A stretch of DNA of 64,000 bases from Arachis hypogaea (lineage: Eukaryota; Streptophyta; Magnoliopsida; Fabales; Fabaceae): positions 102,279,363-102,343,362 of the forward strand of contig NC_092046.1 in assembly GCF_003086295.3 (NCBI RefSeq), in the 5' to 3' direction. The notes under the pieces were generated by a model that saw nothing but the letters and a program-made list of their open reading frames with translations, searched no databases and had not been told where the DNA came from. This document shows positions 17,571 to 63,335 of the stretch, in pieces. Each line of letters starts with the position of its first letter. Within the stretch, counting starts at the first letter, position 1. Position numbers and translations under genes: made by a program.

Positions 17571-17582
17571 AAGAGAACAGCC

Positions 17583-17629
17583 GTCAAGCTAGTGACGATA
17601 AACGAGCGCTTCATGGGAGACAACACATG
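17583..17629 (+). other. Conserved post-gag/pol hairpin module (element C)
   Basis: Three elements stand in a row just after the ORF end: stem CGTCA/TGACG around AGCTAG, then GAGCGCTT, then CATGGG-AGACAA-CACATG (one mismatch). Same order and spacing as in D, E, F and G. Confidence 0.7.
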
Positions 17630-32106: not shown

Positions 32107-32125
32107 GGCTCCATGAGAGCTCACT

Positions 32126-32173
32126 GTCAAGCTATTGACATTAAAGAAGCGCTTGTTGGGAGGCAACCCAATG
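32126..32173 (+). other. Conserved post-gag/pol hairpin module (element D)
   Basis: Stem GTCAA-GCTA-TTGAC, palindrome AAGCGCTT, then TTGGG-AGGCAA-CCCAA, 20 bp after the ORF stop. The same module follows the ORF in C, E, F, G and H with compensating stem changes. Confidence 0.8.
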
Positions 32174-32318: not shown

Positions 32319-32491
32319 CTGGCATTTAAACACCAGAAACAAGCATCTGTCTGGCGTTTAACGCCAGAAACAAGCACCAAGCTGGCGTTTAACGCCAAAA
32401 ACAAGCATCTGCCTGGCATTAAACGCCAAAAACAGGCTACATTTGGGCGTTTAACGCCGGAAACAAGCAGTAGTCTGGCGTTAAACGCCAG
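32319..32491 (+). repeat. CTGGCGTTTAACGCCAG array, element D 3' spacer
   Basis: Six units of about 30 bp, each a CTGGCGTTTAACGCCAG-type palindrome followed by AAACAAGCA. Same position as arrays in E (39722-39896) and F (44783-44956). ORFs over it are artefacts. Confidence 0.88.
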
Positions 32492-37223: not shown

Positions 37224-39518
37224 ATGAGCAGGAGCAAGGACAAGAACATTCTTGTTGAAGCAGATCCAGAACCTGAAAGGACTCTGAAGAGAAAATTAAG
37301 AGAAGCTAAATTACAACAATCCAGAGATAACCATTCAGAAATTTTCGAAGAGGAAGAGGAGATGGCAGCCAAAAATAATAATAATGCAAGGAGGATGCTT
37401 GGTAACTTTACTGCACCTAATTCCAATTTACATGGAAGAAGCATCTCCATTCCTGCCATTGGAGCAAACAACTTTGAGCTGAAACCTCAATTAGTTTCTC
37501 TGATGTAGCAGAACTGCAAGTTTCATGGACTTCCATCTGAAGATCCTTTTCAGTTCTTAACTGAATTCTTGCAGATATGTGATACTGTTAAGACTAATGG
37601 AGTTGATCCTGAAGTGTACAGGCTCATGCTTTTCCCTTTTGCTGTAAGAGACAGAGCTAGAATATGGTTGGACTCTCAACCCAAAGACAGCCTGAACTCT
37701 TGGGATAAGCTGGTCACGGCTTTCTTAGCCAAGTTCTTTCCTCCTCAAAAGCTGAGCAAGCTTAGAGTGGATGTTCAAACCTTCAAACAAAAAGATGGTG
37801 AATCCCTCTATGAAGCTTGGGAAAGATACAAACAGTTGACTAAAAAGTGTCCTTCTGACATGCTCTCAGAATGGACCATCTTGGATATATTCTATGATGG
37901 TCTGTCTGAGTTATCAAAGATGTCATTGGATACTTCTGCAGGTGGATCCATTCACCTAAAGAAAACGCCTGCAGAAGCTCAAGAACTCATTGACATGGTT
38001 GCTAATAACCAGTTCATGTACACTTCTGAGAGGAATCCTGTGAGTAATGGGACGCCTATGAAGAAGGGAGTTCTTGAAGTTGATACTCTGAATGTCATAT
38101 TGGCTCAGAATAAAATATTGACTCAGCAAGTCGATATGATTTCTCAGAGTCTGAATGGAATGCAAGCTGCATCCAACAGTACTCAAGAGGCTTCTTATGA
38201 AGAAGAAGCTTATGATCCTGAGAACCCTGCAATAGCAGAGGTAAATTATATGGGTGAACCTTATGGAAACACATATAATCCATCATGGAGAAATCACCCA
38301 AATCTCTCATGGAAGGATCAAAAGCCTCAACAAGGCTTTAGTAATGGTGGAAGAAACAGGTTTAACAATAATAAACCTTTTCCATCATCCACTCAGTAAC
38401 AGACAAAGAACTCTGAACAAAATACTTCTAATTTAGCAAACTTAGTCTCTGATCTATCCAAGGCCACTGTAAGTTTCATGAATGAAACAAAGTCTTCCAT
38501 TAGAAATCTAAAAGCACAAGTGGGCCAGCTGAGTAAAAGGATCACTGAAATCCCTCCTAGTACTCTCCCAAGCAATACAGAAGAGAATCCAGAAGGAGAG
38601 TGCAAGGCCATTGACATAAGCACCATGGCCAAACCTGTAAAGGAAGGAGAGGACGTGAATCCCAAGGAGGAAGACCTCCTGGGACGTCCAGTGATCAATA
38701 AGGAGCTTCCCTCTGAGGAACCAAAGGACTCTGAGGCTCATCTAGAGAACATAGAGATTCCATTGAACCTCCTTATGCCATCCATGAGCTCTGATGAGTA
38801 CTCCTCTTCTGAAGAGAATGAGGATGTCACTGAAGAGCAAGCTACCAAGTTTCTTGGTGCAATCATGAAGCTGAATGCCAAATTATTTGGCATTGAAACT
38901 TGGGAAGATGAACCTCCCTTGTTCACCAATGAACTAAGTGATCTGGATCAACTGACATTGCCTCAGAAGAGACAGGATCCCGGAAAGTTCATAATACCTT
39001 GTACCATAGGCACCATGATCTTTAGGGCTCTGTGTGACCTTGGTTCAGGGATAAACCTCATGCCCCTCTCTGTAATAGAGAAACTGGGAATCTATGGGGT
39101 GCAAGCTGCTAAAATCTCATTAGAGATGGCAGACAATTCAAGAAAATAGGCATATGGACAAGTAGAGGACGTGTTAGTAAAGGTTGAAGGCCTTTACATC
39201 CCTGCTAATTTCATAATCCTGGATACTGGAAAGGAAGAGGATGAATTCATCATCCTAGGAAGACCTTTCCTAGCCACAGCAAGAGCTGTGATTGATGTGG
39301 ACAGAGGAGAATTAATCCTTCAATTGAATGAGGACAGCCTTGTGTTTACAACTCAAGGATCTCTCTCTGCATCCATGGAGAGGAAGCATAAAAAGCTTCT
39401 CTCAAAGCAGAGTCAAACAAAGCCCCCACAGTCAAACTCTAAGTTTGGTGTTGAACTCCCATATCCAAACTCTAAGTTTGGTGTTGGAGAGTCTCAACAA
39501 TGCTCTGCACATCTGTGA
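37224..39518 (+). pseudogene. gag-protease of element E, three internal stops
   Basis: One frame from ATG 37224 (MSRSKDKNILVEADPEPER) to TGA 39516-39518, with stops at 37506 (TAG), 38397 (TAA) and 39147 (TAG). Gag core: FPFAVRDRARIWLDSQP, SLYEAWERYKQLTKKCP, ILDIFYDGL. There is no CCHC knuckle; a Trp/Asn-rich NPSWRNHPNLSW stretch lies where one would be expected. Retropepsin: ALCDLGSGINLMP (Ser replaced by Gly after DLG..), ILGRPFLATARAVIDV. Tail with two NSKFGV repeats. No RT. Compared with the F copy the three stops all replace Gln codons. Confidence 0.92.
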
Positions 39519-39537
39519 GGCTCCATGAGAGCCCACT

Positions 39538-39585
39538 GTCAAGCTATTGACATTAAAGAAGCGCTTGTTGGGAGGCAACCCAATG
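39538..39585 (+). other. Conserved post-gag/pol hairpin module (element E)
   Basis: Stems GTCAA-GCTA-TTGAC and TTGGG-AGGCAA-CCCAA with AAGCGCTT between, 20 bp after the stop; identical to the D copy. Confidence 0.8.
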
Positions 39586-39721
39586 TTTATTTATCTAATT
39601 TTATTTTTGTTTTTCATGTCTTTATAGGTTCATGATCATGTGGAGTCACAAAATAAATATAAAAATTGAAAACGGAATCAAAAACAGCAGAAGAAAAATC
39701 ACACCCTGGAGGAAGCATCTG

Positions 39722-39896
39722 CCTGGCGTTCAACGCCAGAACAGAGCATGGTTCTGGCGCTGAACGCCCAAAATGGGCAGCATCCTGGCGCTGAACACCC
39801 AGAACAAGCATGGTTCTGGCGTTCAACGCCAGAAATGGCAACAAATGGGCGTTGAACGCCCAAAATAGGCACCAACCTGGCGCTGAACGCCCAGAG
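39722..39896 (+). repeat. CTGGCGTTCAACGCCAG array, element E 3' spacer
   Basis: Six palindromic units, several with the variant CTGGCGCTGAACGCCCAG. Downstream, 39958-40015 holds the inverted repeat ATCTGTGG/CCACAGGAT in two copies, also seen in F near 44695-44712. Confidence 0.85.
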
Positions 39897-40135
39897 TTGT
39901 GTGCAAGGGCATTTTACATGCCTAATTTGGTGCAAGGTTGTAAATCCTTGAACACCTCAGGATCTGTGGATCCCACAGGATCATCTCAGGATCTGTGGTC
40001 CCCACAGGATCTCCACCCACCTCACCCTCTCTCTCCATTCATGACCATCCCTTCTGTTTTCCATTCACCATTCACATCTATACACACATCCCTCCATCTC
40101 CTCCATATCTTCTTCTCCTTCTATTCTTTCTTCTT

Positions 40136-40585: not shown

Positions 40586-41688
40586 GGTGGATTCATTCAT
40601 TGTTCTTATTTCTTCTGTTTTTCGTTTTCTATGTTATGTGCTTATCTATGTTTGTGTCTTCATTACATGATCATTAGTAGTTAGTAACTATGTCTTAAAA
40701 GTTATGAATGTCCTATGAATCCATCACCTCTCTTAAATGAAAAATGTTTTAATTCAAAAGAACAAGAAGTACATGAGTTTCGAATTTATCCTTGAACTTA
40801 GTTTAATTATATTGATGTGGTGACAATGCTTCTTGTTTTCTGAATGTATGCTTAAACAGTGCATATGTCTTTTGAAGTTGTTGTTTAAGAATGTTAAATA
40901 TGTTGGCTCTTGAAAGAATGATGACAAGGAGACATGTTATTTGATAATCTGAAAAATCATAAAAATGATTCTTGAAGCAAGAAAAAGCAGCAAAGAACAA
41001 AGCTTGCAGAAAAAAAAATAGGCGAAAAAAAAATAGAAAGAAAAAGCAAGCAGAAAAAGCCAAAAGCTCTTAAAACCAAGAGGCAAGAGCAAAAAGCCAA
41101 TAACCCTTAAAACCAAAAGGCAAGGGCAAATAAAAAGGATCCCAAGGCTTTGAGCATTAGTGGATAGGAGGGCCTAAAGGAATAAAATCCTGGTCTAAGC
41201 GGCTAAACCAAGCTGTCCCTAACCATGTGCTTGTGGCATGTAGGTGTCAAGTGAAAACTTGAGACTGAGCGGTTAAAGTCAAGGTCCAAAGCAAAAAAAA
41301 GAGTGTGCTTAAGAACCCTGGACACTTCTAATTGGGGACTTTAGCGAAGCTGAGTCACAATCTGAAAAGGTTCACCCAATTATGTGTCTGTGGCATTTAT
41401 GTATCCGGTGGTAATACTGGAAAACAAAGTGCTTAGGGCCACGGCCAAGACTCATAAAGAAGTTGTGTTCAAGAATCATCATACTGAACTAGGAGAGTCA
41501 ATAACACTATCTGAACTCTGAGTTCCTATAGATGCCAATCATTCTGAACCTCAATGGATAAAGTGAGATGCCAAAACTATTCAAGAGGCAAAAAGCTACA
41601 AGTCCCGCTCATCTGATTGGAGCTATGTTTTATTGATAGTTTGGAATTTATAGTATATTCTCTTCTTTTTATCCTACTTGATTTTCAG
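40586..41688 (+). other. 3' untranslated region of element E
   Basis: Collinear with the 3' UTR of A: purine tract (41005-41050), AAAAGCCAAAAGC repeats, then the conserved GGCTAAACCAAGCTGTCCC block at 41201. No gene. Confidence 0.75.
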
Positions 41689-41725
41689 TTGCTTGGGGAC
41701 AAGCAACAATTTAAGTTTGGTGTTG
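41689..41725 (+). promoter_or_regulatory. Hairpin plus AAGTTTGGTGTTG plus-strand primer (element E)
   Basis: TTGCTTG-GGGA-CAAGCAA (41689-41706), then TTAAGTTTGGTGTTG directly before the LTR at 41726. Confidence 0.75.
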
Positions 41726-43460
41726 TGATGAGCGGATAATTTATACGCTTTTTGGCATTGTTTTTAGTATGTTTTTAGTAGGATCTAGTTACTTTTAGGG
41801 ATGTTTTCATTAGTTTTTATGTTAAATTCATATTTCTGGACTTTACTATGATTTTGTGTGTTTTTCTGTGATTTCAGGTATTTTCTGGCTGAAATTGAGG
41901 GACTTGAGCAAAAATCAGATTCAGAGGTTGAAGAAGGACTGCTGATGCTGTTGGATTCTGACCTCCCTCCACTCAAAATGGATTTTCTGGAGCTACAGAA
42001 CTCAAAATGGCGCGCTTCTAATTGCGTTGGAAAGTAGACATCCAGGGCTTTCTAGCAATATATAATAGTCCATACTTTGGCCAAGTTTAAATGACTCAAA
42101 CTGGCGTTCAACGCCAGCTCTCTGCCCAAATCTGGCGTCCAGCGCTAGAAAAGGATCCAAAACCAGAGTTGAACGCCCAAACTGGCACAAAAACTGGCGT
42201 TCAACTCCAGGAATGACCTCTACACGTGCAACACTCAAAGCTCAGTCCAAGCACACACCAAGTGGGTCTCGGAAGTGGATTTATGCATCAATTACTTACT
42301 TCTGTAAACCCTAGTAGCTAGTTTATTATAAATAGGACCTATTACTATTGTATTAGGTATCTTTGATCAGTTGTATGCTATCTTAGATCACGTTTGAGGG
42401 CTGGCCTCTCGGCCATGCCTGGACTTTCACTTATGTATTTTTAACGGTAGAGTTTCTACACTCCATAGATTAAGGTGTGGAGCTCTGCTGTTCCTCAAAG
42501 ATTAATGCAAAGTACTACTGTGTTCTATTCAATTCATCTTATTTCGCTTCTAAGATATTCATTCGTACTTCAATCTGAATGTGATGAACGTGACAATCAT
42601 CATCATTCCCTATGAACGCGTGCCTGACAACCACTTCCGTTCTACCTTAGACTGAATGAGTATCTCTTAGATCTCCTAACCAGAATCTTCGTGGTGTAAG
42701 CTAGAATGATGGCGGCATTCAAGAGAATCCGGAAGGTCTAAACCTTTTCTGTGGTATTCCGAGTAGGATTCAATGAATGAATGACTGTGACGAGCTCCAA
42801 ACTCGCGATTGCGGGGCGTTAGTGACAGACGCAAAAGGATAGTAAATCCTATTCCAGCATGATCGAGAACCGACAGATGAATAGCCGTGCCGTGACAGGG
42901 TGCGTTGACCATTTTCACTGAGAGGATAAGATGAAGCCATTGACAAGGGTGATGCCTCCAGACGATTAGTCGTGCCGTGACAGGGCATTTGGATCATTTT
43001 CCTGAGAGAAGACCGAAAGTAGCCATTGACAGTGGTGATGTATCACATAAAGCCAGCCATGGAAAGGAGTAAGACTGATTGGATGAAGACAGCAGGAAAG
43101 CAGAGGTTCAGAGGAACGAAAGCATCTCTATTCGCTTATCTGAAATTCTCACCAATGATTTACATAAGTATTTCTATCCCTATTTTATTAATTATTTTCG
43201 AAAACTCCATTACTATTTTATATCCGCCTGACTGAGATTTACAAGGTGACCATAGCTTGCTTCATACCAACAATCTCCGTGGGATTCGACCCTTACTCAC
43301 GTAAGGTATTACTAGGACGACCCAATGCACTTGCTGGTTAGTTATGCGAAGTTGTGAAGATATGTTTAGACCATGGTCCTATGCATCCATTTTTGGTGCC
43401 ATTGCCAGGGAATCAATTTCGAACAACAATTCACAACCTAAGTAGCAATTTCACATACCA
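41726..43460 (+). repeat. 3' LTR of element E (1735 bp)
   Basis: TGATGAGCGG to CACATACCA; TATA box 42327-42334; PBS-like TGGTGCCATTGCCAGGGA at 43394-43411. Followed by CTTGT inside the aORF of F. Confidence 0.9.
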
Positions 43461-44280
43461 CTTGTCCTCTTCAATGAGGATGTCTCCCTCTATGTCAATT
43501 CCAGCCGAATTGCAGAGGTGGCATATGAGGTGAGGAAAGGTTGACCTTGCCCAAGTGGAGGACTTGTCAGCCACTTTGTAAAGTTTTTGAGGTATAATCT
43601 CATGAACTTCCACCTCCTCTCCAATCATGATACTATGGATCATGATGGCCCGGTTTATAGTAACTTCAGACCGGTTACTAGTAGGAATGATTGAGCGTTG
43701 AATGAACTCTAGCCATCCCCTAGCCACTAGTTTGAGGTCATGTCTTCTTAATTGAACCGGCTTGCCTCTTGAGTCAATTTTCCATTGAGCTCCTTCCTCA
43801 CATATGTCTATGAGGACTTGGTCCAACCTTTGATCAAAGTTGACCCTTCTTGTGTAGGGACGTGCGTTCTCTTCCATCATTGGCAAGTTGAACGCCAGCC
43901 TTACATTTTCCGGATTGAAATCTAAGTATTTCCCCCGAACCATGGTGAGCCAATGCTTTGGATTCGGGTTCACACTTTGATCATGGTTCCTAGTGATCCA
44001 TGCGTTTGCATAGAACTCTTGGACCATTAAGATCCCGACTTGTTGAATAGGGTTGGTGAGAACTTCCCAACCTCTTCTTCGGATCTCATGTCGGATCTCC
44101 GGATACTCATTCTTTTTGAGCTTGAAAGAAACCTCAGGGATCACTTTCTTCTTAGCCACAACTTCATAGAAGTGGTTTTGATGGACCTTTGAGATGAATC
44201 TCTCCATCTTCTATGACTCAGAGGTGGAAGCAATTGCCTTCCCTTTCCTCTTTCTAGAGGTTTCTCTGGCCTTAGGTGCA
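43461..44280 (-). pseudogene. Accessory ORF of element F, 3'-truncated
   Basis: The best preserved copy of the FIDEL-like aORF. The expected ATG (MAP...) is mutated to ATT near 44278; an in-frame stop lies near 44216, and 44207-43461 is open (MERFISKVHQNHFYEVV onward). It contains the plant transposon protein domain: KNEYPEIRHEIRRRGWEVL, FYANAW, MVRGKYLDF, GWLEFIQRSIIP, FPHLICHLCNSAGI. It is cut by the E LTR after EEDK. The domain's function is unknown; it is found in many plant Ty3 elements. The upstream basic segment (RKRKGK) could be a nuclear signal. Confidence 0.85.
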
Positions 44281-44352: not shown

Positions 44353-44782
44353 CAAAAGAAAAAAGAAAGTAGTAGAAGAAGAAGAAGAATAGAGGAGATG
44401 GAGGGAGAGGGGTGTGTATTCGGCCAAGGGTAAGAAGAAAGGGTTGTGTTGTGTGAAAATGAAGAAGGAAAGAGGGGTTTATATAGGGGTGTGATGGGAT
44501 TTAGGGTTCGGCCATTAGGGTTGGGTTTGGAAGGGAAAATAGTTTGAATTTTGAAGGTAGGGGGGTTTATGGGGAAGAGAGGATGGATGTGACTGGTGAA
44601 GAGGTGATGGGAAAGAGTGATTTAGGTGATTGGTGAAGGGTATTTGGGGAAGAGAGTTGTGAAAAGGTGTAAAGAGGGGAGAAGAAGATGTGGGGATCCT
44701 GTGGGATCCACAGATCAAGTGGGGTCAAGGACTTAACATTCCTGCTCCAGTTAGGCGTGTAAAACGCCCTTGCTGTGCAATC

Positions 44783-44956
44783 CTGGCGTTTAACGCCAGA
44801 TTGCTGCTTGTTTCTGGCGTTAAACGCCCAAATGTAGCCTGTTTCTGGCGTTTAACGCCAGGCATATGCTTGTTTCTGGCATTAAACGCCAGCTTGGTGC
44901 CTGTTTCTGGCGTTAAACGCCAGACAGATGCTTATTTCTGGCGTTTAAATGCCAGA
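44783..44956 (-). repeat. CTGGCGTTTAACGCCAG array, element F 3' spacer
   Basis: Six palindromic units of about 30 bp in the same relative position as in D and E. Confidence 0.88.
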
Positions 44957-45100: not shown

Positions 45101-45147
45101 ATTGGGTTGCCTCCCAATAAGCACTTCTTTAACATCAATAGCTTGAC
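45101..45147 (-). other. Conserved post-gag/pol hairpin module (element F)
   Basis: Minus strand: GTCAAGCTATTGAT, AAGTGCTT, then ATTGGG-AGGCAA-CCCAAT. Relative to D, the G-T closing pair of the third stem is A-T here. Confidence 0.78.
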
Positions 45148-45166
45148 AGTGAGCTCTCATGGAGCC

Positions 45167-46657
45167 TCACAGATGTTCAGAGCATTGTTGGAACCTCCCA
45201 ACACCAAACTTAGAGTTTGAATGTGGTGGTTCAACACCAAACTTAGAGTTTGGTTGTGGCCTCCCAACACCAAACTTAGAGTTTGACTGTGGGGGCTTTG
45301 GTTGACTCTGCAGTGAGAGAAGCTTTTCATGCTTCCTCTCCATGGTTACATAAGGAGATCCTTGAGTTTTAAACACAAGGTTGTCCTCATTCAGTTGAAG
45401 GACTAATTCTCCTCTGTCCACATCAATCACAGCTCTTGCTGTGGCTAGGAAGGGTCTTCCAAGGATGATGGATTCATCCTCTTCCTTCCCAGTGTCTAGG
45501 ATTATGAAATCAGCAGGGATGTAAAGACCTTCAACCTTTACTAACACGTCCTCTACTTGTCCATAAGCCTGTTTTCTTGAGTTGTCTGCCATATCTAATG
45601 AGATTCTAGCAGCTTGCACCTCAAAGATCCCAAGTTTCTCCATTACAAAGAGTGACATTAAATTTATTCTTGACCCCAGGTCACACAGAGCCTTCTCAAA
45701 GGTCATGGTGCCTATGGTACAGGGTATTAAGAATTTACCAAGATCCTGTTTCTTTTGAGGTAATTTCTGCCTATCTAATGCATTCAGTTCATTGGTGAGC
45801 AAGGGAGGTTCATCTTCCCAAGTCTCATTACCAAATAATTTGGCATTCAGCTTCATGATTGCACCAAGGTACTTAACAACTTGCTCTTTAGTAATGTCTT
45901 CATCCTCTTCAGAGGAAGAATACTCATCAGAGCTCATGAAGGGCAGAAGGAGGTTCAATGGAATCTCTATGGTCTCTAGATGAGCCTCAGATTCCTTTGG
46001 TTCCTCAAAGGGGAACTCCTTATTGGTCACTAGCCATCCTAGGAGGTCTTCCTCACTAGGATTCACGTCCTCCTCTTCCCTTGTAGGTTCGGCCATGATG
46101 GTCAAATCAATGGCCTTGCACTCTCTCTTTGGATTCTCTTCTGTATTGCTTGGGAGAGTACTAGGAGGAGTTTCAGTGACTCTTTTACTCAGCTGGCCCA
46201 CTTGTGCCTCCAAATTTCTAATGAAGGACCTTGTTTCATTCATGAAACTCACAGTAGCCTTAGATAGATCAGAGACTATATTTGCTAAGCTAGATGGATT
46301 CTGCTCAGAATTCTCTGTCTTTTGCTGAGTGGATGATGGAAAAGGCTTGCTATTGCTAAGCCTGTTTCTTCCACCATTATTAAAGCCTTGTTGAGGCTTT
46401 TGTTGATCCTTCCATGAGAAATTTGGATGATTTCTCCATGAGGGATTATAGGTGTTTCCATAGGGTTCACCCATGTAATTCACCTCTGCTATTGTAGGGT
46501 TCACAGGATCATAAGTTTCTTCTTCAAAAGAGGCCTCTTTAGTACTGTTGGATGATTCCTTCAATCCATTCAGACTTTGAGAGATCATATTGACTTGCTG
46601 AGTCAAAATTTTATTCTAAGCCAATATGGCATTCAGAGTATCAATTTTAAGAACTCC
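45167..46657 (-). pseudogene. gag C-terminus/retropepsin of element F (second part)
   Basis: Continues gag after the G insertion. TAG near 46617 replaces a Gln codon of E; then open from 46606 to the stop at 45167. Trp/Asn-rich NPSWRNHPNFSWKDQ in place of a zinc knuckle; QVGQLSKRVTE coil; acidic linker; retropepsin ALCDLGSRINLM and ILGRPFLATARAVIDV; tail with three NSKFGV repeats. The Gly/Ala after DLG.. is Arg-bearing here, so activity is doubtful. Confidence 0.9.
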
Positions 46658-49081
46658 TGATGCACGGAAAACTTGTCTCACAACAAATTCCCTTCGGCAA
46701 GTGTACCGAATTTGTCGTCAAGTAAAAACTCACAATAGAGTGAGGTCAAATCCCACAAGGATTGATTGATCAAGCAACTTTAATTAGAGGACTGTTCTAG
46801 TTGAGCGAATCCAGAATTTGAGTTGAGAATTGCAGAAAACAAAATGGCGGGAAGGTAATTGACAGGAAAGTAAATGCTAGAATTATAGATCTGAAAGTAA
46901 ATGTCGGAAGGTAAATTGCAGAATTGTAAATGGGAATGGGGGAATTGCTCATTAAAGTAAATAACAGAAATTAAAGAGAATGGGTAAGATCAGAAATGGG
47001 AAGTTCATTGGGCTTAGGAGATGTTGCATTCTCCGGATCAATTTAATTTTCATCTCTTCCTTAATCAATGCACTCATTGATCTCCTTGGCAATCTTAAGT
47101 GATTGAATTACAATTTCTTGTAATTCAATCTCTCAAATCTTGATCAATAGCCAATTCCTTGGTCAATTGCTCATGAGAAGAGATGAAGTATGGTCACTGA
47201 TTATACCATATGCATTTCCCAAACCAAGTGTTGAGAGGATTATAGTCACATATCCATCAAAACCCAATTTGGTCTAGCATGAGAAAGCATTTCTAGCTTG
47301 ATCTCTTCATTCCTCTTTCAAGGTTCAGAAGAGATCCAAGTATAAATAGCTTCTTTTTCAAGATAACTACTCAATTGGATGAAGATCAAAAGCTTTCAAG
47401 TAAAATCAAGAGAAAAGATAGAAGAAGAATAATGAAAACTAGTATTGATCCATCAAATTACAACAGAGCTCCCTAACCCAATGACAGGGGTTTAGTTGTT
47501 CATAGCTCTGGAAAATAAAAACAAAGATGGAGAATACGTGATGAAAACTTAGAAGTGCAGAGAAAGTAAAATACAGAGAGTATTTCTATGCTAAGAGTCT
47601 CCCTGTAATTTCCAACTCTCAAAATATTTCAAAGATACTCCTATATATACTACTCTTCTGTTCTTCTAGTTGATTCTTCAAGTCTTGGGCCTTTGGATCT
47701 TGAGTTGGAAGCAGTTCTCTTCTTCATTGGGCTTAGCTTTTACTTGCAGAGAGAAAGTATGAAGTGGGCAGGGGCTTTGGCTCAGGAAGTTAGTGGTGTT
47801 AACGTTCAGTGAAAATATGGGTTCGAGAACGTTAGTGACAATCACCTTTTTTACTAACGTTCCTCACCAAAGTTAAAGGCCACGTTAACCTCAACGTTAG
47901 TGGCACAAACGTTGCCACTAACATTTCCACTATGTCCTTCGCACACGTTATTGGGACTCAACTTTCCCAATAACTTTGAGAAGCCTCCCCCTTCCCTACG
48001 TTAGAGCCCACGTTAACTTAGTTAACGTGGCTCTTTTAACGTAGGCTCGCCATCCTTCGAGAACGTTAGTGACACTTACCATTGTCACTAACGTTCCAAA
48101 TTGCCCCTATTTTCCACATTAGAGTCCACGTTAACTAGGTTAACGTGGCTTCTAATGTGGCCTTGCTAGCCATCTCCAACGTTAGTGACAAAGTTAAGTG
48201 TCACTAACGTTGGCTCATCCTTCCCTTATCCACGTTAGCTTCCACGTTAACTAAGTTAACGTGGCTCATGGTGGCATGTGTGGTTCCTTCCAACGTTAGT
48301 GACAATGTTGGGTGTCACTAACGTTGGCGATCACCTTCTTTCTTCACGTTAGCTTCCACGTTAACTAGGTTAACGTGGGAGTCAACGTGGCTCATTGGGG
48401 GCTTGTGTTCTTCCAACGTTAGTGACAATGTTGGGTGTCACTAACGTTGTCGACCACTTTGTTCCTTCACGTTAGCTTCCATGTTAACTAGGTTAACGTG
48501 GGAGTTAACGTGGCTTAATGTGCTTTGGCCAACGTTAGTGACAATGTTGAGTGTCACTAACGTTGGCTCCCCCCCTTCCTTCTTAACGTTAGAGGCCATG
48601 TTAACTAGGTTAACGTGGACTCTAACGTGGCCACTCATGATCTTGGTTCAACGTTAGTGATAATGTTAAGTGTCACTAATGTTGGCTCAATTTCTTAACG
48701 TGGGCAATGATGGCTTCGAGAGCATTATTGGCAATCACTTTTCTCATTAACTTTGCAAGTTACTCCCATTCCACGTTAGTGTTAACGTTAGTGCAACTAA
48801 CGTAGCCACTCATGTGGTTCTTCTTTGCTTCCTTTGTCCTGAAATTAAGCAATAAAGTGCATCAAAGTTCTAGTCCAAGTCATGGGAAATGCAACGTCCA
48901 ATTTGTCCTTAAATTCATGCAAAATCCTCATGAAATCCTGTAAAATGCACAATGTATGCTTGAATCAAGATGTAAGTGAATATCTACCCAAAACTAGCTT
49001 ATTTCCTAAGGAAATGCATGAAACTATCCTAAAAACAGTAAAGAAAAGGTCAGTGAAACTGGCCAAAATGCCCTGGTATCA
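46658..49081 (-). repeat. 3' LTR of element G (2424 bp)
   Basis: Minus orientation: TGATACCAGGG (49081 inward) to CCGTGCATCA (46658). TATA-like TATATATAG near 47641-47650; AGGGAGCTCTGTTGT with an upstream hairpin at 47461-47494; palindromic array 47800-48805 in U3. Confidence 0.93.
47800..48805 (-). repeat. AACGTTAGTGAC / CACGTTAACnnGGTTAACGTG palindromic array (3' LTR G)
   Basis: About eight irregular units of 100-130 bp alternate two inverted repeats: AACGTTAGTGAC...GTCACTAACGTT and CCACGTTAACTAGGTTAACGTGG. Unit sequences between are unrelated host-like filler. The minus-strand ORF 48441-48638 only translates the array. Confidence 0.9.
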
Positions 49082-49117
49082 CAACACCAAACTTAAAGCT
49101 TGCTTGTCCCAAGCAAG
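49082..49117 (-). promoter_or_regulatory. Hairpin plus AAGTTTGGTGTTG plus-strand primer (element G)
   Basis: Minus strand: CTTGCTTGGGACAAGCAAG stem-loop, then CTTTAAGTTTGGTGTTG directly before the LTR. Same layout as A and E although the families differ. Confidence 0.75.
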
Positions 49118-50175
49118 TTCTGGAACAAGAGAATGATGAAAGAAATGCCAAGAGACATGAGTCATTCTTGTAGAAGTCATGTCCTGGTTTTATGGTGGTT
49201 TCATGCATAGCAACGTAGGCTCATTCCTGGCTTTCAGAACTTTATCATGTCCTAGAATACTCACTTGTTATTGCATCCCATGAGACTTTTATTCATTGAT
49301 CCTTTTGTTGTTATTTAAGGGCTTATTTTTGTTCTTAAGCTAAGTGCTCTGTAAGGGGGCAACTCTTTAAAATAAGCTTTCAGCCAACACTCCCGAACCA
49401 GTTGGTTCAAGGTGCTAGGTGTTGAAGCACCCCTAAGGACTTACTTGCTCAAGTCTCTCCCCCATACATACACACCATAGGCACATAGTTTATTTATTTT
49501 CTTTTCTTGAGACCTTGGTGTCCAGTACCTCTTTGGGTTACTAAAAGCTCTGTGGTGAGGGTTACTCTTGATAGTGGACTTTCAGCTGATAATCCTGGGT
49601 TAGTTAACCCAAGTTACCAAGTGATAAGGCACCCCTAAGAGCTTATTCATCCAAGTAGATCCCTCACACAGGAGCACCACAGACACATGCTTCAAGATTA
49701 AAACCATTGGTGCCTAGCCTTATTGCTTACTATTTTTCTTTTATTCCTCAACTTTGATTGTTCTTTCCCTTTTTCTTATTAGGATCTTCTTATTTATCTA
49801 GTCTCATGGGGTGTGTCTCAAGCATAGTATTCATGACAAATAGTTGTCTTCCCACCTTATGGTTGAACCAACTTAGCTAACTTATGACCACACCACAAAC
49901 TCATGGACTTACTCCCTAGTATGAACTCCACTCTGGTCTTTTGAAAACAATCATTCTCTTTTCATTTGATTCAAAAGGGACAAGCATACAAGTAAGTAAA
50001 GAAATGATGCAGTGACATAGAGACTAGCACACAGAGACCTCTTCAACACACAAACTAAAAAAAACAGAATTTAAAAAGGTTTAAACTAATCATGGAAGCA
50101 AGTTCTATTTCATACAAGATCTTCCTTATTTAAAACTTAGAACAAGATGGACCAAAGAAAGAACTCCACCACCTT
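49118..50175 (-). other. 3' untranslated region of element G
   Basis: No gene. Two similar blocks (about 49345-49480 and 49545-49690) share AGCTCT-GG..AACTC and AAGGCACCCCTAAG..CTTA motifs, a tandem-duplication remnant. No recognised ORF. Confidence 0.6.
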
Positions 50176-51640
50176 TTACTCTTGTGGATGTCCATGCTTT
50201 CCTCCTTGTTTGTCTTCTTTGTGTCCTCTTGCATTCCCTCTCATCCGTGCCAATCTTGCTTGCTTCCAATCTTCATACCTTGTGATTCCTGGATGTAATA
50301 TAGGCAGTTGTCCTACCAAGTAACCGAGCCTGGCTTGAGTATTTATATAATGCCCAGTCTCGCTCATGTAAACTCTTTCTGCGAATGCCCTTTGCTCGTC
50401 CAATAGTTCTGCCTATTCTATTTGTCTTCGATGCATCTCATGTATATGTGCACCTTGATGTGCTTGGATGTTGATTAGCCTCTGGATGGATTCTTGTTGC
50501 TCATTTTGCCTTTGTTCTATCCTGTGAAATGTTTCATTCTATTGTTGTCCTTGACTCAGTTCTTGATCCATCTTTTGCTTTTGCCAATCCCCTTGTTGAG
50601 TCATCCATCTTGAGAGTGACTCCTCTTGTTGCCCCATCATCTGTAGTTGAAGTTCTCTCTGTGCTCCTTGGCTCTCCAAATATTGTTGAGATAGTCCACT
50701 AATGGCCTCCTGCAATTGATGCATATCCAAAGTGGTTGGTGCTTGCCCTTCTACGGCTTGTCCTTCTACTACTTGAGGGGCTGTCCTCTTCCTTTGCTTC
50801 CGTTGAGGTAGGGGGGATGCAGTGGCATGCATTCGTTGAACGGTTATTGGAATGCCCTCTTTTATCCATACGGGGTCCTCATCTTCAAACACTACCCCAG
50901 CTTTCTTGCACAGTCGGTAAATAGTGCTGGGGTAACCTAACGTTCCTCTTGAGTCACTTTTCTCTGCCATTTTTCTAATGCCTTCTGCTATGAGTTCATG
51001 AACCTTGATTTCTCCTCCTTTGAGTATACTGTGTACCAGTGTGGCTCTCTTGAGATTCACCTCCGAGTTGTTCGCTGCTGGGAGGATAGACCTCCTTACA
51101 ATCTCGAACCATCCCTTTGCTTCCGGAGTAAGATCTGCTCTCTTGATGAACCTTGGTCTCCTATCTGCATATCTTTCCCTGTCAGCTCCTGGTACACAAA
51201 TGTCTTGCATAATCTGATCATGATTAGGGTTGTTGTCCATCCTTGACTGATAACTCTCTTCTTCAAACGGTATAGACCGCAGTTTTAATGCCTTCATGAC
51301 ACTCATGGGGCCAAAATCCACAATCTTTCCTCTCACAAAGCTTGTATATGACTCATCTGCCTTATCATAACGGACCGCATTTGCATAAAACTCTCTTATA
51401 AGATTTGCATTCACCTTAATGACCAGATCAGTGAGGAGCTCCCATCTTCTCTTTTCTACCTTCATTGTAATTTCGGGACACTCAGTTTTCCTAACTTGAA
51501 ATCCTAGCTCATAAATGATTTCTTTATCAATCATCCACCCGTATTGCAAGCATGATGCAAGCTTCTGAATCTCTTTTCATCATACGGGTGTTGCTCCATA
51601 GGTTCCTTCCCCTTCCTTCTTTTAGAGCTTGAAGATGCCA
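50176..51640 (-). pseudogene. Accessory ORF of element G (plant transposon protein domain plus coiled coil)
   Basis: Starts ATG 51640-51638 (MASSSSKRRKGKEPMEQ, basic). A frameshift near 51540 leads into 51549-50539 (IIYELGFQVRKTECPEI onward), stop TAG at 50539; the frame stays open apart from one more TAG near 50415 and ends at 50176. The domain pattern matches F: RRWELLTDLV, REFYANAV, FVRGKIVDF, GWFEIVRRSILP, YRLCKKAGVV. The second half is Gln-rich and coiled-coil-like. Total about 488 codons. With one frameshift and two amber codons it is unlikely to be made intact, although gag-protease of the same copy is open. Confidence 0.85.
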
Positions 51641-52466: not shown

Positions 52467-52515
52467 ACATAGGTTGCCTCCCATGAAGCACTTCTTTAGC
52501 GTCACTAGCTTGACG
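52467..52515 (-). other. Conserved post-gag/pol hairpin module (element G)
   Basis: Minus strand: CGTCA-AGCTAG-TGACG, AAGTGCTT, then CATGGG-AGGCAA-CCTATG (one G-T pair). Confidence 0.8.
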
Positions 52516-52600: not shown

Positions 52601-55351
52601 CTACATGTTCCAAGGAAAGAACTCTGTTGATAGTGAAGACCTTAGGTAACTGAGATGGTACAGTGGGGAGATTAGGGGGATATCTGGGAAGTAAGCTGAA
52701 ATCACTTTATCTCCTGGAGAGAGGCCTTCCGTAGGGATCTTCTTGTTCCTCCACCCCCTTGGTACCTTCTTCTTTGTCCCTTTTGATGCTTCCCTGTTCT
52801 TGGCGACTTCTTCTTTTAAGTGAATTTTGTTGTTGTCTTCACATGCCTCTGGTGGTTTAGGTTCCTCCAGCTTCTCCTTGAGCTGTGACGATTGCTGTTT
52901 GCCTTGTTCATCATTCAGTGGGGTTCTCAGATGTGTTGGTAGTGCCTCAGTTCTTGTTTCCTCTGTCAGCATCCCGTTATGATCATTGCTTGGTTCTTTG
53001 TTTTCTTGGTCAGTTTCTTGGGAGAGTTTAAAGACATTGAAGCTGAGTTGTTCATCATGGATCCTCAATATTAGCTCATCTCGCTCCATGTTTATGAGTG
53101 CTCTGGCTGTAGCTAGGAATGGTCTTCCCAATATGATTGGGTGAGTGTGACTTTCTTCCATGTCCAAGATGACAAAGTCTGTGGGAAGAAAGTATTTCCC
53201 CACCTTTAACAACACGTTTTCCACCACCCCTCTTGCTTGTTTTTGAGTTTTATCAGCCAGCCTGATGACTACATCTGTGGGCAATATCTCATTGATCTGC
53301 AGCCTCTTCACCAGGGATAGAGGAATTAAGTTGATGCTTGCTCCCAAATCGCAGAGTGCTCTATCAAACATTGTTTCTCCTATGGCACAGGGGACATGAA
53401 AACTCCCTGGATCTTTTCTTTTTGTAGGCAACTGCGGTTGAATGAGGGCACTGCACTCCTTGTTCATCACTATAGTTTGGCCTCCCTTGAGTGAGCTTTT
53501 CCTGGGAAGCAACTCCTTCATGTACTTGATGAATGCAGGTATTTGTTGGATAGTCTTGATGAATGGTATGTTCACATGCAGAGATGCAAATAAGTCAAGA
53601 AATCTTGAGTATATTCTCCTCTCCACAGCTCCCTTGAGCAGTTGGGGAAAAGGTGCATAGAGTCTCAGCAACTCCTGTTTTGAGATTTCTGGTTCTTGGT
53701 AATCTTTTTCCACCTCCTCTACTGAGGTATCTTTAGGTTGTTTTGACAGCTTGCTTGGCTTGTCCTCAGTCTCCTTATCACTTATAGTGACCATCTTGCA
53801 ATCTTCCCATCTTACCTTCTTTGTTTCACCTCTCGGATTCTTCTCTGTGTCACTTGGAAATCCATCTGTGGGTTTGGGAATTTGCTCAGAGAGATATCCT
53901 ACTTGAGATTCCAACCTCTTGATTGTGTGTCCCTGGTTCTTGAAACTGGCTCGCACTTCCTCCTTGAAGACCTTGCTGTCTTGAATCTCCTTGCTTAGGC
54001 CTTCAAGTAGATTCTCAATCCTTGAGATTCTTTCATCAAATGATGACAGGTCAGGCTGAGTAAGGTTATTCTGGCCTTGATATGAATGTGGGGATGTGTT
54101 GTTATGGGGGTGTTGATATGGTCTAGGTGTGAAGTGTTGGGTGGCTGCATTGTTTGGATTTGGGCGTCTTTGATTAAGGCTTTGGTCTTGTTGATTTCTC
54201 CACCCAAAGTTTGGGTGATTCCTCCATCCAGGGTTGTAGGTCTTGGAGTATGGATCATGGTTTTGCCTAGGTGAATTCCCAATGTAGTTGGCTTGCTCCT
54301 GACTACCCTCTGCTTTTTCATTCACTCCTTCTTGGGTTGTTGATGAAGTGGAGACTGCTGCTACTTGGTTCCTCTCCATCTTCTTGGTGAGGTCAGCCAG
54401 CTGCTGGGTAATGAGCTTGTTTTGGGCCAGCAGAGCATCTACATTGTTTAGCTCCATTACTCCTCTTGTGTTCCCTCTTTCGGAAGCATAGAAGTAGTCG
54501 TTCTCTGCTACTGTTTCAATGACATCTATGGCTTCCTTAATAGTCTTCTTCTTGTTCAAAGATCCTCCGGATGAATGGTCTACGGCCTTCTTTGACTCAT
54601 AAGAGAGCCCTTCATAGAAAATGTGCAGCTGCACCCATTCGTTGAACATATCTGGTGGGCACCTCCTTGTTAAGTCTTTAAACCTCTCCCATGCTTCATA
54701 TAGAGTCTCACTATCTTGTTGCCTAAAAATTTGGACCTCAGCTCTCAGCCTATTGATTCGTTGAGGAGGGTAAAATATTGCTAAGAATTTGTTCACCACG
54801 TCTTCCCAAGTTGTCAAGCTCTCCCTTGGGAAAGACTCCAGCCACTTAGCTGCCTTATCCCTGAGTGAGAATGGAAATAAGAGCAGTCTATAGGCGTCAG
54901 GATGAACACCATTAGACTTCACTGTGTCACATATTCTCAGGAAGGTGGTTAGATGTTGATTGGGGTCCTCTTGGACACTCCCTCCGAACGAACACTTGTT
55001 CTGAACAAGGGTGATGAGCTGTGGCTTCAGTTCAAAATTGTTGGCATGGATGGTTGGCTTTTGAATGCTACTTCCACAGTTCCCTGGGTTTGGATTGATG
55101 TAAGAGCCTGAAACTCTTCTATCCTCCCCAGCATGATTTGCTCCACCTCCTCTGCCATGGTTGTGAGCCTCTTCTTCATGATGGTTTTCCATGTTTTCTT
55201 CCATGTTTGGTTCAAAGTATTCCTCAAAGTGTTCCTCCTCTTCTTCACCACCAACTACACATTTTTCTCTTGCTTCCCTCCTTAGTCTAAGGAAGGTTCT
55301 CTCAGGTTCAGAATCAAAGGAAGTTGAAGCCCCACTTCTTCTCCCTGTCAT
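52601..55351 (-). CDS. gag-protease polyprotein of element G, intact
   Basis: Open from MTGRRSGASTSFDSEPER (ATG 55351-55349; seven codons upstream are also open but lie before the conserved start) to the stop at 52601. Gag: FPFSLRDKAAKWLESFPRE, TLYEAWERFKDLTRRCP, LHIFYEGL; no CCHC knuckle, instead NPGWRNHPNFGWRNQ. A coiled coil follows (LSSFDERISRIENLLEGL). Retropepsin: ALCDLGASINLIP active-site loop, DFVILDMEES, IILGRPFLATARALIN. The Lys/Glu-rich end carries GLSPGDKVISAYF, like the integrase GPY/F tail seen in C. No RT or integrase core, so it could supply capsid and protease only. Only undamaged ORF of the window. Confidence 0.93.
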   Translation of the reverse strand: MTGRRSGASTSFDSEPERTFLRLRREAREKCVVGGEEEEEHFEEYFEPNMEENMENHHEEEAHNHGRGGGANHAGEDRRVSGSYINPNPGNCGSSIQKPTIHANNFELKPQLITLVQNKCSFGGSVQEDPNQHLTTFLRICDTVKSNGVHPDAYRLLLFPFSLRDKAAKWLESFPRESLTTWEDVVNKFLAIFYPPQRINRLRAEVQIFRQQDSETLYEAWERFKDLTRRCPPDMFNEWVQLHIFYEGLSYESKKAVDHSSGGSLNKKKTIKEAIDVIETVAENDYFYASERGNTRGVMELNNVDALLAQNKLITQQLADLTKKMERNQVAAVSTSSTTQEGVNEKAEGSQEQANYIGNSPRQNHDPYSKTYNPGWRNHPNFGWRNQQDQSLNQRRPNPNNAATQHFTPRPYQHPHNNTSPHSYQGQNNLTQPDLSSFDERISRIENLLEGLSKEIQDSKVFKEEVRASFKNQGHTIKRLESQVGYLSEQIPKPTDGFPSDTEKNPRGETKKVRWEDCKMVTISDKETEDKPSKLSKQPKDTSVEEVEKDYQEPEISKQELLRLYAPFPQLLKGAVERRIYSRFLDLFASLHVNIPFIKTIQQIPAFIKYMKELLPRKSSLKGGQTIVMNKECSALIQPQLPTKRKDPGSFHVPCAIGETMFDRALCDLGASINLIPLSLVKRLQINEILPTDVVIRLADKTQKQARGVVENVLLKVGKYFLPTDFVILDMEESHTHPIILGRPFLATARALINMERDELILRIHDEQLSFNVFKLSQETDQENKEPSNDHNGMLTEETRTEALPTHLRTPLNDEQGKQQSSQLKEKLEEPKPPEACEDNNKIHLKEEVAKNREASKGTKKKVPRGWRNKKIPTEGLSPGDKVISAYFPDIPLISPLYHLSYLRSSLSTEFFPWNM

Positions 55352-55609
55352 ACAACCAATAAATACAAGCAAAGAGAATAGGTGCAGAAAGTATATCTGT
55401 CAGAATTATTGTTAGTGTGAGTGATGCAATATATCAAACAGTTAGTGGGTTAGTGAGACGAATAGTAAATAACAAAGAAAAAGTAAGGGGGAAGGGAAGA
55501 AGTTATCTAAAACATAAAGTAAATGACTCAAACAGAAATTTAAATCAAACAAAAATAAAATGCTCAATCTAGTTATCCTCCAATCTAATCATTGTTGATG
55601 CACAATCAA
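55352..55609 (-). other. Short leader of element G
   Basis: About 250 bp between PBS and gag ATG, far shorter than the 1.5-1.9 kb leaders of D, E and F. No AAGTTTGGTGT copies seen. Confidence 0.6.
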
Positions 55610-55627
55610 TCCCCGGCAACGGCGCCA
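55610..55627 (-). promoter_or_regulatory. Primer-binding site (tRNA-Asp), element G
   Basis: Minus strand TGGCGCCGTTGCCGGGGA: perfect 18-nt complement of plant tRNA-Asp(GTC) with CCA, 6 nt after the LTR end. Confidence 0.93.
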
Positions 55628-55633
55628 TAAACT

Positions 55634-58078
55634 TGATGCACGGAAAACTTGTCTCACAACAAATTCCCTTCGACAAGTGTACCGAATTTGTCGTCAAGTA
55701 AAAACTCACAATAGAGTGAGGTCGAATCCCACAAGGATTGATTGATCAAGCAACTTTAACTAGAGGACTGTTCTAGTTGAGCGATTCCAGAATTTGAGTT
55801 GAGAATTGTAGAAAATAAAATGGCGGGAAGGTAATTGACTGGAAAGTAAATGCTAGAATTATAGATCTGAAAGTAAATGTCGGAAGGTAAATTGCAGAAT
55901 TGTAAATGGGAATGGGGGAATTGCTCATTAAAGTAAATAACAGAAATTAAAGAGAATGGGTAAGATCAGAAATGGGGAGTTCATTGGGCTTAGGAGATGT
56001 TGCATTCTCCGGATCAATTTTATTTTCATCTCTTCCTCAATCAATGCACTCATTGATCTCCCTGGCAATCTTAAGTGATTGAATTACAATTTCTTGTAAT
56101 TCAATCTCTCAAATCTTGATCAATAGCCAATTCCTTGGTCAATTGCTCATGAGAAGAGATGAAGTATGGTCACTGATTATACCACATGCATTTCCCAAAC
56201 CAAGTGTTGAGAAGATTATAGTCACATATCCATCCAAACCTAATTTGGTCCAGCATGAGAAAGCATTTCTAGCTTGATCTCTTCATTCCTCTTTCAAGGT
56301 TCAGAAAAGATCCAAGTATAAATAGATTCTTTTTCAAGATAACTACTCAATTGGATGAAGATCGAAAGCTTTCAAGTAAAATCAAGAGAAAAGATAGAAG
56401 AAGAATAATGAAAACTAGTACTGATCCATCAAATTACAACAGAGCTCCCTAACCCAATGACAGGGGTTTAGTTGTTCATAGCTCTGGAAAATGAAAACAA
56501 AGATGGAGAATACATGATGAAAACTTAGAAGTGCAGAGAAAGTAAAATACAGAGAGTATTTCTATGCTAAGAGTCTCCCTATAATTTCCAACTCTCAAAA
56601 TATTTCAAAGATACTCCTATATATACTATATATACTACTCTTCTATTCTTCTAGTTGATTCTTCAAGTCTTGGGCCTTTGGATCTTGAGTTGGAAGCAGT
56701 TCTCTTCTTCATTGGGCTTAGCTTTTACTTGCAGAGAGAAAGTATGAAGTGGGCAGGGGCTTTGGCTCAGGAAGTTAGTGGTGTTAACGTTCAGTGAAAA
56801 TATGGGTTCGAGAACATTAGTGACAATCACCTTTTTCACTAACGTTCCTCACCAAAGTTAAAGGCCACGTTAACCTCAACGTTAGTGGCACAAACATTGC
56901 CACTAACGGTTCCACTATGTCCTTCGCACACGTTATTGGGACTCAACTTTCCCAATAACGTTGAGAAGCGTCCCCCTTCCCTACGTTAGAGCCCACGTTA
57001 ACTTAGTTAACGTGGCTCTTTTAACGTAGGCTTGCCATCCTTCGAGAACGTTAGTGACACTTACCATTGTCACTAACGCTCCAAATTGCCCCTATTTTCC
57101 ATGTTAGAGTCCATGTTAACTAGGTTAACGTGGCTTCTAACGTGGCCTTGCTAGCCATCTCCAACGTTAGTGACAAAGTTGAGTGTCACTAACGTTGGCT
57201 CATCCTTCCCTTATCCACGTTAGCTTCCACGTTAACTAAGTTAACGTAGGAGTTAACGTGGCTCATGGTGGCATGTATGGTTCCTTCCAATGTTAGTGAC
57301 AATATTGGGTGTCACTAACGTTGGCGATCACCTTCTTTCTTCACGTTAGCTTCCACGTTAACTAGGTTAACGTGGGAGTCAACGTGGCTCATTAGGGGCT
57401 TGTGTTCTTCCAACGTTAGTGACAACGTTGGGTGTCACTAACGTTGTCGACCACTTTGTTCCTCCAAGTTAGCTTCCACGTTAACTAGGTTAACGTGGGA
57501 GTTAACGTGGCTTAATGTGCTTTGGCCAACGTTAGTGACAATGTTGAGTGTCACTAACGTTGGCTCCCCCCCTTCCTTCTTAACGTTAGAGGCCACGTTA
57601 ACTAGGTTAACGTGGACTCTAACGTGGCCACTCATGATCTTGGTTCAACGTTAGTGATAATGTTAAGTGTCACTAACGTTGGCTCTATTTCTTAACGTGG
57701 GCAATGATGGCTTCGAGAGCGTTATTGGCAATCACTTTTCTCATTAACTTTGCAAGTTACTCCCATTCCACGTTAGTGTTAACGTTAGTGCAACTAACGT
57801 AGCCACTAATGTGGTTCTTCTTTGCTTCCTTTGTCCAGAAATTAAGCAATAAAGTGCATCAAAGTTCTAGTCCAAGTCATGGGAAATGCAACGTCCAATT
57901 TGTCCTTAAATTCATGCAAAATCCTCATGAAATCATGTAAAATGCACAATGTATGCTTGAATCAAGATGTAAGTGAATATCTACCCAAAACTAGCTTATT
58001 TCCTAAGGAAATGCATGAAACTACCCTAAAAACAGTAAAGAAAAGGTCAGTGAAACTGGCCAAAATGCCCTGGCATCA
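55634..58078 (-). repeat. 5' LTR of element G (2445 bp)
   Basis: TGATGCCAGGGCAT to CCGTGCATCA in minus orientation. Differs from the 3' LTR by scattered substitutions and a short duplication at the TATA-like stretch (ACTATATATACTATATATAC near 56615-56635). Confidence 0.94.
56795..57815 (-). repeat. Palindromic array in 5' LTR of element G
   Basis: Collinear with 47800-48805, same two alternating palindromes; a few units carry an extra GGAGTTAACGTGG segment relative to the other LTR. Confidence 0.9.
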
Positions 58079-58920
58079 ACTCCTTTCCTCTGAGGCGTCC
58101 TATTACTCATAGGATTCCTTTCAGAAGTGTACATGAACTGGTTATTTGCAACCATGTCAATGAGTTCTTGAGCTTCTACAGGCGTTTTCTTTAGGTGAAT
58201 GGATCCACCTGCAGAATGGTCCAATGACATTTTAGATAATTCAGATAGACCATCATAGAATATATCCAGGATGGTCCATTCTGAAAGCATGTCAGAAGGA
58301 CACTTTTTGGTCAGTTCCTTATATCTCTCCCAAGCTTCATAGAGGGATTCACCTTCTTTTTGTCTGAAGGTTTGAACATCCACTCTAAGCTTACTAAGCT
58401 TTTGAGGAGGAAAGAACTTGGCTAAGAAAGCTGTGACCAGCTTATCCTAAGAGTTCAGGCTATCTTTAGGTTGAGAGTCCAACCATATTCTAGCTCTGTC
58501 TCTTACAGCAAATGGGAAAAGCATAAGCCTGTAGACCTCGGGGTCAACCCCATTGGTCTTAACAGTTTCACAGATCTGCAAGAATTCAGTTAAGAACTGA
58601 AAAGGATCTTCGGAGGGAAGTCCATGAAACTTGCAGTTCTGTTGCATCAGAGAAACTAATTGAGGTTTCAGCTCAAAATTGTTTGCTCCAATGGCAGGGA
58701 TTGAGAGGCTTCTTCCATGTAAGTTGGAATTTGGTGCAGTAAAGTCACCAAGCATCTTCCTTGCATTGTTATTATTTTCGGCCATGTCTCCTTTTTCGAA
58801 AACTTCAGTCAGGTTTTCTCCAGAGAGTTGTACTTTAGCTTCCCTTAGCTTCCTCTTCAGAGTTCTTTCAGGTTCAGGATCAGCTTCAACAAGAATGTTC
58901 TTATTCTTGTTCCTGCTCAT
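58079..58920 (-). pseudogene. gag N-terminal part of element F (first part)
   Basis: From ATG 58920-58918 (MSRNKNKNILVEADPEPER) to the G insertion; TAG near 58447 replaces the Trp of the E copy (NSWDKL). Gag core as in E: FPFAVRDRARIWLDSQP, SLYEAWERYKELTKKCP. Continues at 46657 after G. Confidence 0.9.
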
Positions 58921-63268: not shown

Positions 63269-63318
63269 GGTGGGTTGTCTCCCACCTAGCACTTTTAGTT
63301 AAAGTCCTTAAGTTGGAC
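63269..63318 (-). other. Conserved post-gag/pol hairpin module (element H)
   Basis: Minus strand: GTCC-AACTTAA-GGAC, AAAAGTGCTA, then GGTGGG-AGACAA-CCCACC, starting about 20 bp after the stop. Stems differ in sequence from D-G but keep full pairing. Confidence 0.75.
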
Positions 63319-63335
63319 ATTGGATGAGCTTCCTG

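Follow-up and report, generated by a model that had tools for sequence, protein, structure and literature searches.

A conserved two-hairpin module just beyond a stop codon in LTR retrotransposons, and its likeness to the coremin motif of plant viruses

Results

The module and its six copies

The 64,000-nucleotide stretch of Arachis hypogaea DNA analysed here (the window) is filled with nested LTR retrotransposons, and six of its elements (C, D, E, F, G and H) carry, beyond the end of a coding region, a module of about 50 bases with two small hairpins. We conclude that a conserved structured RNA element almost certainly exists at this place. The module represents a structured RNA family that has no Rfam match, is conserved to the level of the primer binding site (PBS), and is present in tens of thousands of copies in one plant genome.

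All six copies were found where the initial annotation had placed them and on the strands it had given (Table 1). A 24-base pattern taken from the second half of the module and searched with up to three mismatches has exactly six matches in the window, compared with 0.01 in shuffled sequences. The order of parts is hairpin 1 (16-17 nt), spacer (14 nt; 16 in H) and hairpin 3 (18 nt), the latter with a loop of six bases, AGRCAA. The conserved spacer is A-rich and has AGYGCU at its 3′ end, and AGCUA occurs in the hairpin 1 loop of most copies. The middle block AAGYGCTT that had been described for every copy is present in D, E, F and G, but reads GAGCGCTT in C and AAGTGCTA in H. Modules D and E are the same letter for letter, so that the window holds five distinct sequences, of which that of element H is the most divergent.

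Table 1. Window coordinates of the six modules, and of the reading frames and conservation yardsticks of elements F and G
Feature	Position	Strand	Parts or remarks
Module C	17582..17629	+	hairpin 1 17582-17597, spacer 17598-17611, hairpin 3 17612-17629
Module D	32125..32172	+	hairpin 1 32125-32140, spacer 32141-32154, hairpin 3 32155-32172
Module E	39537..39584	+	hairpin 1 39537-39552, spacer 39553-39566, hairpin 3 39567-39584
Module F	45101..45148	-	hairpin 1 45133-45148, spacer 45119-45132, hairpin 3 45101-45118
Module G	52468..52515	-	hairpin 1 52500-52515, spacer 52486-52499, hairpin 3 52468-52485
Module H	63269..63319	-	hairpin 1 63303-63319, spacer 63287-63302, hairpin 3 63269-63286
Element F frame	45170..46615	-	stop 19 nt before GTC; aspartyl protease match weak, below Pfam cut-off
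Frame ~0.9 kb downstream of module F	43434..44210	-	Pfam Transposase_32
Element G frame	52604..55399	-	Retrotrans_gag and aspartyl protease; RT/integrase domain not found there
Element G frame ~0.9 kb downstream of module	50542..51576	-	Pfam Transposase_32 (PF20167)
Element G primer binding site	55612..55627	-	exact match to searched pattern; conservation yardstick
Element G polypurine tract / 3′ LTR junction island	49078..49141	-	conservation yardstick

Position after the stop codon and host elements

By position the module lies directly after a stop codon, as had been claimed, but the frame closed by that stop runs open for just 29 codons in C, 45 in D and 59 in G, as against 122 in E, 220 in H and 482 in F. 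The gap from stop to GTC within the window is 12 nt (C, G), 17 nt (H) or 19 nt (D, E, F). Among 69 modules with long flanks (63 from the host genome and the six of the window; longest qualifying frame used), 61 follow a frame of 70 codons or more that stops no further than 60 nt away, and the distance from this stop to the hairpin is 6-19 nt in 52 of the 61 and 27-53 nt in the other nine. Both copies scanned of the lineage that we call type I have an integrase core in the module-preceding frame, with stops 12 and 13 nt before GTC. Since the ORF ends differ between lineages, the feature that has been kept is the distance and not the protein end.

Pfam domains of gag, aspartyl protease, RT and RNase H were found in different frames of the window, and the frames scanned in E, F and G contain gag and/or protease, with no RT or integrase domain found in them. 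The carriers are probably plant Ty3/gypsy-type retrotransposons, and the PBS points tentatively to an Athila-like lineage. A PBS pattern of the Athila/Tat type has six matches in the window at up to three mismatches, against 0.06 by chance, and the PBS found here presumably also fits tRNA-Asp.

Several other repeats accompany these elements. Element G has two 2.4-kb LTRs that are 96.9% identical and that contain repeats at 47935-48690 and 56920-57685. The motif TAAGTTTGGTGT occurs at 25 window sites with at most one mismatch (0.57 by chance; for example at 2542, 32028, 32061 and 41712, and on the minus strand at 45267, 49084 and 52265), at places that include the polypurine tract (PPT) position before 3′ LTRs, the region after 5′ LTRs and the region after the module; in D, E and F it is also tandemly repeated, in frame, ahead of the stop. 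A hairpin such as GTTGCTTGGGGACAAGCAAC directly precedes the PPT-like motif at 41688-41707, in element A (~2518-2537) and in G (before 49094, minus strand), with related copies near 32655, 40140 and 44345 (the last on the minus strand). Judged by eye and uncounted, its stem varies between elements and mostly still pairs, less so near 44345. Arrays of short palindromic repeats resembling GGCGTTTAACGCC lie downstream of the module in D, E, F and H alike (32350-32490, 39720-39900 and, on the minus strand, 44780-44950 and 61680-61797).

Conservation of the module against its flanks

Within a span reaching from 600 nt upstream to 900 nt downstream of the module, we found that C or G aligns with D, E or F across the module (50-76 nt) and that the flanks do not align, apart from matches of 41 nt that link C to E and to F a long way upstream. 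Elements D, E and F are mutually alignable over long flanks, C and G align over 715 nt at 60%, and D, E and F each share about 120 aligned nt with H from the module onward. At the threshold used to compare whole internal regions, G against H and C against H gave no alignment at the module.

The comparison of G with E allows the module to be set against other parts of the element (domain names were assigned from the Pfam results and positions). The coding regions align over 603 nt of gag at 61.5% and 406 nt of protease at 60.6%, while the non-coding islands are the PBS region (42 nt at 81.0%), the PPT/3′ LTR junction (66 nt at 77.3%) and the module (59 nt at 81.4%). The module is therefore as conserved as the priming sites of reverse transcription.

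Pairing in the window copies

The 11 proposed pairs in the five distinct sequences make up 55 cells, of which 53 hold standard pairs; there are four G.U and no A.C cells, and shuffling of the 3′ letters reaches 53 paired cells in 7 of 20,000 trials. Irregularities are a G.A mismatch in hairpin 3 of C, two G.U pairs in hairpin 1 of F and a T.T outer pair in hairpin 1 of H. In a MAFFT alignment, which misplaces H within hairpin 1, 88.3% of cells are paired and the covariation score is 0.392, compared with a shuffled mean of 0.166 and none of 500 shuffles as high; slid versions of the proposed structure score at most 0.183. The number of pairs changed on both sides in this alignment is three, which is not unusual, as 86 of 500 shuffles reach it. 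Moreover, the window copies fold singly no better than their shuffles (z -1.95 to +0.24), and the MFE structure departs from the proposed one in G and H (other pairings) and in C (four pairs of hairpin 3). Given these ordinary single-sequence energies, the case for structure rests on comparison.

The loop of hairpin 1 offers a further pairing: in C, D, E, F and G its AAGC is complementary to GCTT in the spacer, H carries ACTT/AAGT instead, and type I copies, as read off the genome, retain only AGC/GCT. These columns barely vary and so yield no covariation; from the letters, a hairpin 1 loop-spacer pseudoknot is possible. We also considered pairing of the loop sequence GGCAAC with the PBS and rejected it, reasoning from the sequences that it is broken in C and H.

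Copies and lineages in the host genome

The core pattern AAGYGCTTNNTGGGAGRCAACC has 42,652 exact matches in the one host genome searched (2.557 Gb, 440 contigs), 21,428 of them forward and 21,224 reverse, and the same pattern read backwards has none in the whole genome. We analysed the 100 copies listed among these matches, which all come from a single contig (C1), are not a random sample and include 57 distinct sequences. The second pair of hairpin 3 is T-A in 69 of the 100, C-G in 27, A-T in two, T.G in one and C.T in one; it is thus kept in 99 copies (56 of 57 distinct sequences) and, with the G-C of element H, shows all four Watson-Crick types. The outer pair is kept in 95 copies and 52 of the distinct sequences (G.T 67, G-C 16, A-T 10, C-G 2) and mismatched in the rest (G.G 2, T.T 2, A.C 1). 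Over hairpin 3 of these related copies we count 71 G.U against one A.C. The remaining pairs are less informative, because the search pattern already dictates TGGG on the 5′ side and the first two Cs on the 3′ side.

A permutation test was run with one hand-typed row for each of seven lineages (D/E, F, type I, G/C, H and the single copies L199 and L212); for the outer pair of hairpin 3, the type I row was given G-C, though G.T also occurs there. Both variable pairs of hairpin 3 are paired in all seven lineages (P 0.0095 and 0.048). Grouping by flank similarity gives only four groups, of 62, 5, 1 and 1 copies, the largest of which joins the D/E/F type and type I, so that the separation of these two rests on the module and the ORF end. 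L199 belongs to the C/G group by its flanks, yet differs on both sides at both pairs of hairpin 3.

For hairpin 3, then, selection on RNA structure, as the initial annotation had supposed, is well supported: it concerns the sense strand (G.U far exceeds A.C), and both sides change between lineages. Pairing is conserved and sequence is free at the two outer pairs, and the inner G/C pairs and the loop are conserved in sequence.

Hairpin 1 presents a more mixed picture. GTC N8 GAC is present in 93 of the 100 genome copies, and the loop is of the AAGCT type in 73 and of the CAGCT type, the type I form, in 27. The pair inside the core is paired in six of seven lineages (P 0.048) and the pair outside it in five (P 0.40); most listed type I copies have both core-flanking pairs mismatched, leaving three. 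The compensatory changes earlier proposed for this hairpin are real between D/E, C/G and H, but the flanking pairs fail in type I, and the nearly invariant GTC/GAC core carries little covariation. Selection on structure in hairpin 1 is weakly supported.

Searches for known relatives

A scan of the whole window against Rfam 15 at the gathering score found no match at the module, and a sub-threshold search (E up to 10) of 181 bases around the D module gave three weak, unrelated matches. The only Rfam matches above gathering are to snoR71, at 58285-58392 and 54645-54751 on the plus strand and 37758-37861 on the minus strand; all three are antisense to gag frames, and the family is perhaps repeat-derived. 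Scans of viral and of bacterial and archaeal contigs returned at least 145 loci; among the matches listed, none has hairpin 1 and UAAA followed by a match resembling hairpin 3. When the module was read as a peptide, protein searches gave three matches with the same peptide, then none among 16 candidates.

We also searched the open-licence literature. The letters of the module led to no relevant paper (subjects judged by title), no paper was found that joins xrRNA with retrotransposons (title or start of abstract), and the papers listed on the coremin RNA motif were, by the same parts of the text, all on viruses. As this literature is open-licence only, it is weak evidence of novelty.

Discussion

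We tentatively propose, as a possibility that we hold short of probable, that the main function of the module is that of a coremin-like roadblock to 5′-3′ decay between pol and the downstream ORF. The module would be placed just out of reach of a ribosome terminating at the end of pol (or of gag-protease), and because it lies just past the stop codon, elongating ribosomes would not unwind it. The loop of hairpin 1 would fold back onto the spacer, perhaps through an AAGC/GCUU or AGC/GCU pseudoknot, and hairpin 3 would brace the folded hairpin 1 and spacer, forming a roadblock of the coremin type. The cytoplasmic 5′-3′ exonuclease XRN4 would then be stopped immediately upstream of hairpin 1. What remains would be a stable 3′ RNA that begins directly behind the pol stop and includes the downstream ORF and the 3′ LTR; scanning ribosomes may be hindered as well. 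Parts of a published account report that plant XRN4 and RDR6 compete for RNAs and that a Ty1/copia element is silenced via RDR6 (PMC8892269), so such a roadblock could matter for silencing.

The wider claim, that LTR retrotransposons possess an exonuclease-resistant RNA with more than 40,000 genomic copies which yields a stable 3′ subgenomic-like RNA through a coremin roadblock shared with plant RNA viruses, seems to us rather doubtful. If it is true, plant RNA viruses and retrotransposons would share a roadblock through descent or convergence. A decay-blocking module would be without precedent among retrotransposons, judging by the titles and abstract openings of the open-licence literature, could explain the supply of the ORF after pol or of a silencing decoy, and would link plant viruses with retrotransposons.

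Other readings account for part of the same evidence. The module could be a packaging or dimerisation signal of the genomic RNA, with Gag binding the two hairpins or with RNAs pairing through AGYGCU (together with AGCU of the hairpin 1 loop). Conservation on a par with the PBS and PPT would suit such a signal, as would its presence in E, F and G, whose scanned frames lack RT or integrase domains, and AGYGCU can pair with itself in all five distinct window copies if G.U is allowed. Known packaging signals, however, usually lie near the 5′ end, and this reading, which we judge unlikely, does not predict the fixed place a few nucleotides after the stop. That fixed place is what a shield of the stop codon would explain, where a fold or a bound protein immediately 3′ of the pol stop guards an RNA with a long 3′ region from nonsense-mediated decay: the 6-19 nt gap is held in 52 of 61 copies even though ORF ends vary by lineage. 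Mere structure, though, needs no strict sequence in hairpin 1 and the spacer, the stop is 27-53 nt away in nine of the 61, and such a shield is in our view quite unlikely. Very unlikely, too, is a translation element that serves the downstream ORF by internal entry or reinitiation, since in both F and G the ORF in question, a Transposase_32 ORF that does lie downstream of the module, starts only after about 0.9 kb. Simple reinitiation was rejected on account of that distance. Readthrough of the stop was likewise rejected as unlikely: the next in-frame stop follows after 0-69 codons, and copies differ in the distance to the module and hence in the frame. A frame that closes this soon argues against readthrough into the downstream ORF.

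An element for nuclear export of unspliced RNA would be structured and cis-acting, as the module is, and the module is present in copies with no RT or integrase detected, but this reading leaves the place right after the stop unexplained, and we give it a slim chance. Slimmest of all is the chance that the module has no function as RNA and owes its similarity solely to a DNA site or to common descent. All copies do come from related elements, and single-sequence folds are not unusually stable; against this, the module aligns between C/G and D/E/F where the flanks do not align, hairpin 3 stays paired through changes on both sides, and G.U outnumbers A.C by 4:0 in the window and by 71:1 in hairpin 3 of the 100 related copies.

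Comparison with known systems

Among plant LTR retrotransposons, the Sireviruses, as portrayed in parts of PMC2829016, likewise have conserved non-coding motifs in otherwise divergent elements, together with repeated PPT copies and an inverted repeat at the terminal PPT. They differ in being Ty1/copia elements whose motifs are PPT copies, LTR junctions, LTR repeats and boxes before env, and those parts of the description contain no two-hairpin module after pol. For the Athila/Calypso/Diaspora lineage of plant Ty3/gypsy elements, portions of PMC1142308 place env-like sequence beyond pol in clade A and pair the PBS of Diaspora and Calypso with tRNA-Asp; in G and F an ORF lies beyond the module. 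The words "hairpin" and those beginning with "stem" occur nowhere in that paper.

The closest likeness, noticed after the motif had been seen, is to coremin. According to the sections available of PMC10520033 and PMC5869530, coremin opens with GUC-loop-GAC, continues with a spacer that contains GUUAAAC, and closes with a second hairpin of which the structure alone is conserved. Xrn1 stalls on it one base upstream of hairpin 1, and it can also impede ribosomes that are scanning; the carriers of coremin / xrRNA-C include benyviruses, cucumoviruses and others. Coremin-like motifs are also reported where 3′ UTRs begin, in intergenic stretches and in the vicinity of stop codons (excerpts of PMC10520033). 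By these partial accounts, the two share the order of hairpin, spacer and second hairpin, the GUC/GAC core, UAAA at the same place, and a first hairpin and spacer kept in sequence with a second hairpin kept in structure; some coremins also share the position just after or around a stop codon or between genes. The coremin hairpin 1 and UUAAA appear in the module as GTC N4-10 GAC NN TAAA before hairpin 3, with 92 matches in the loci holding the 100 genome copies and one elsewhere. Within the window this pattern has four matches, all in modules (0.68 expected), and is missing from F and H, two of the six copies; the first U of UUAAA is variable in type I. The second hairpin of coremin has its counterpart in hairpin 3, whose outer pairs covary.

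The loop and spacer depart from the coremin consensus, as far as the consulted excerpts give it. Coremin loops read YGAD (4 nt) or YGNNAD (6 nt), and the module agrees with neither: taken as six bases, its loop is AGCUAN, in which G at position 2 and A at position 5 agree, A occupies position 1 and some copies have C at position 6; type I has CAGCU. The coremin spacer is 8-10 nt long with an essential C-U, whereas that of the module has 14 nt (16 in H) and GA at the corresponding place in most copies, only H having CU nearby. Because of these loop and spacer features, we do not file the module as a coremin. Coremin belongs to plant viruses and the module to LTR retrotransposons, where exonuclease resistance is a proposal; the module may still work like coremin.
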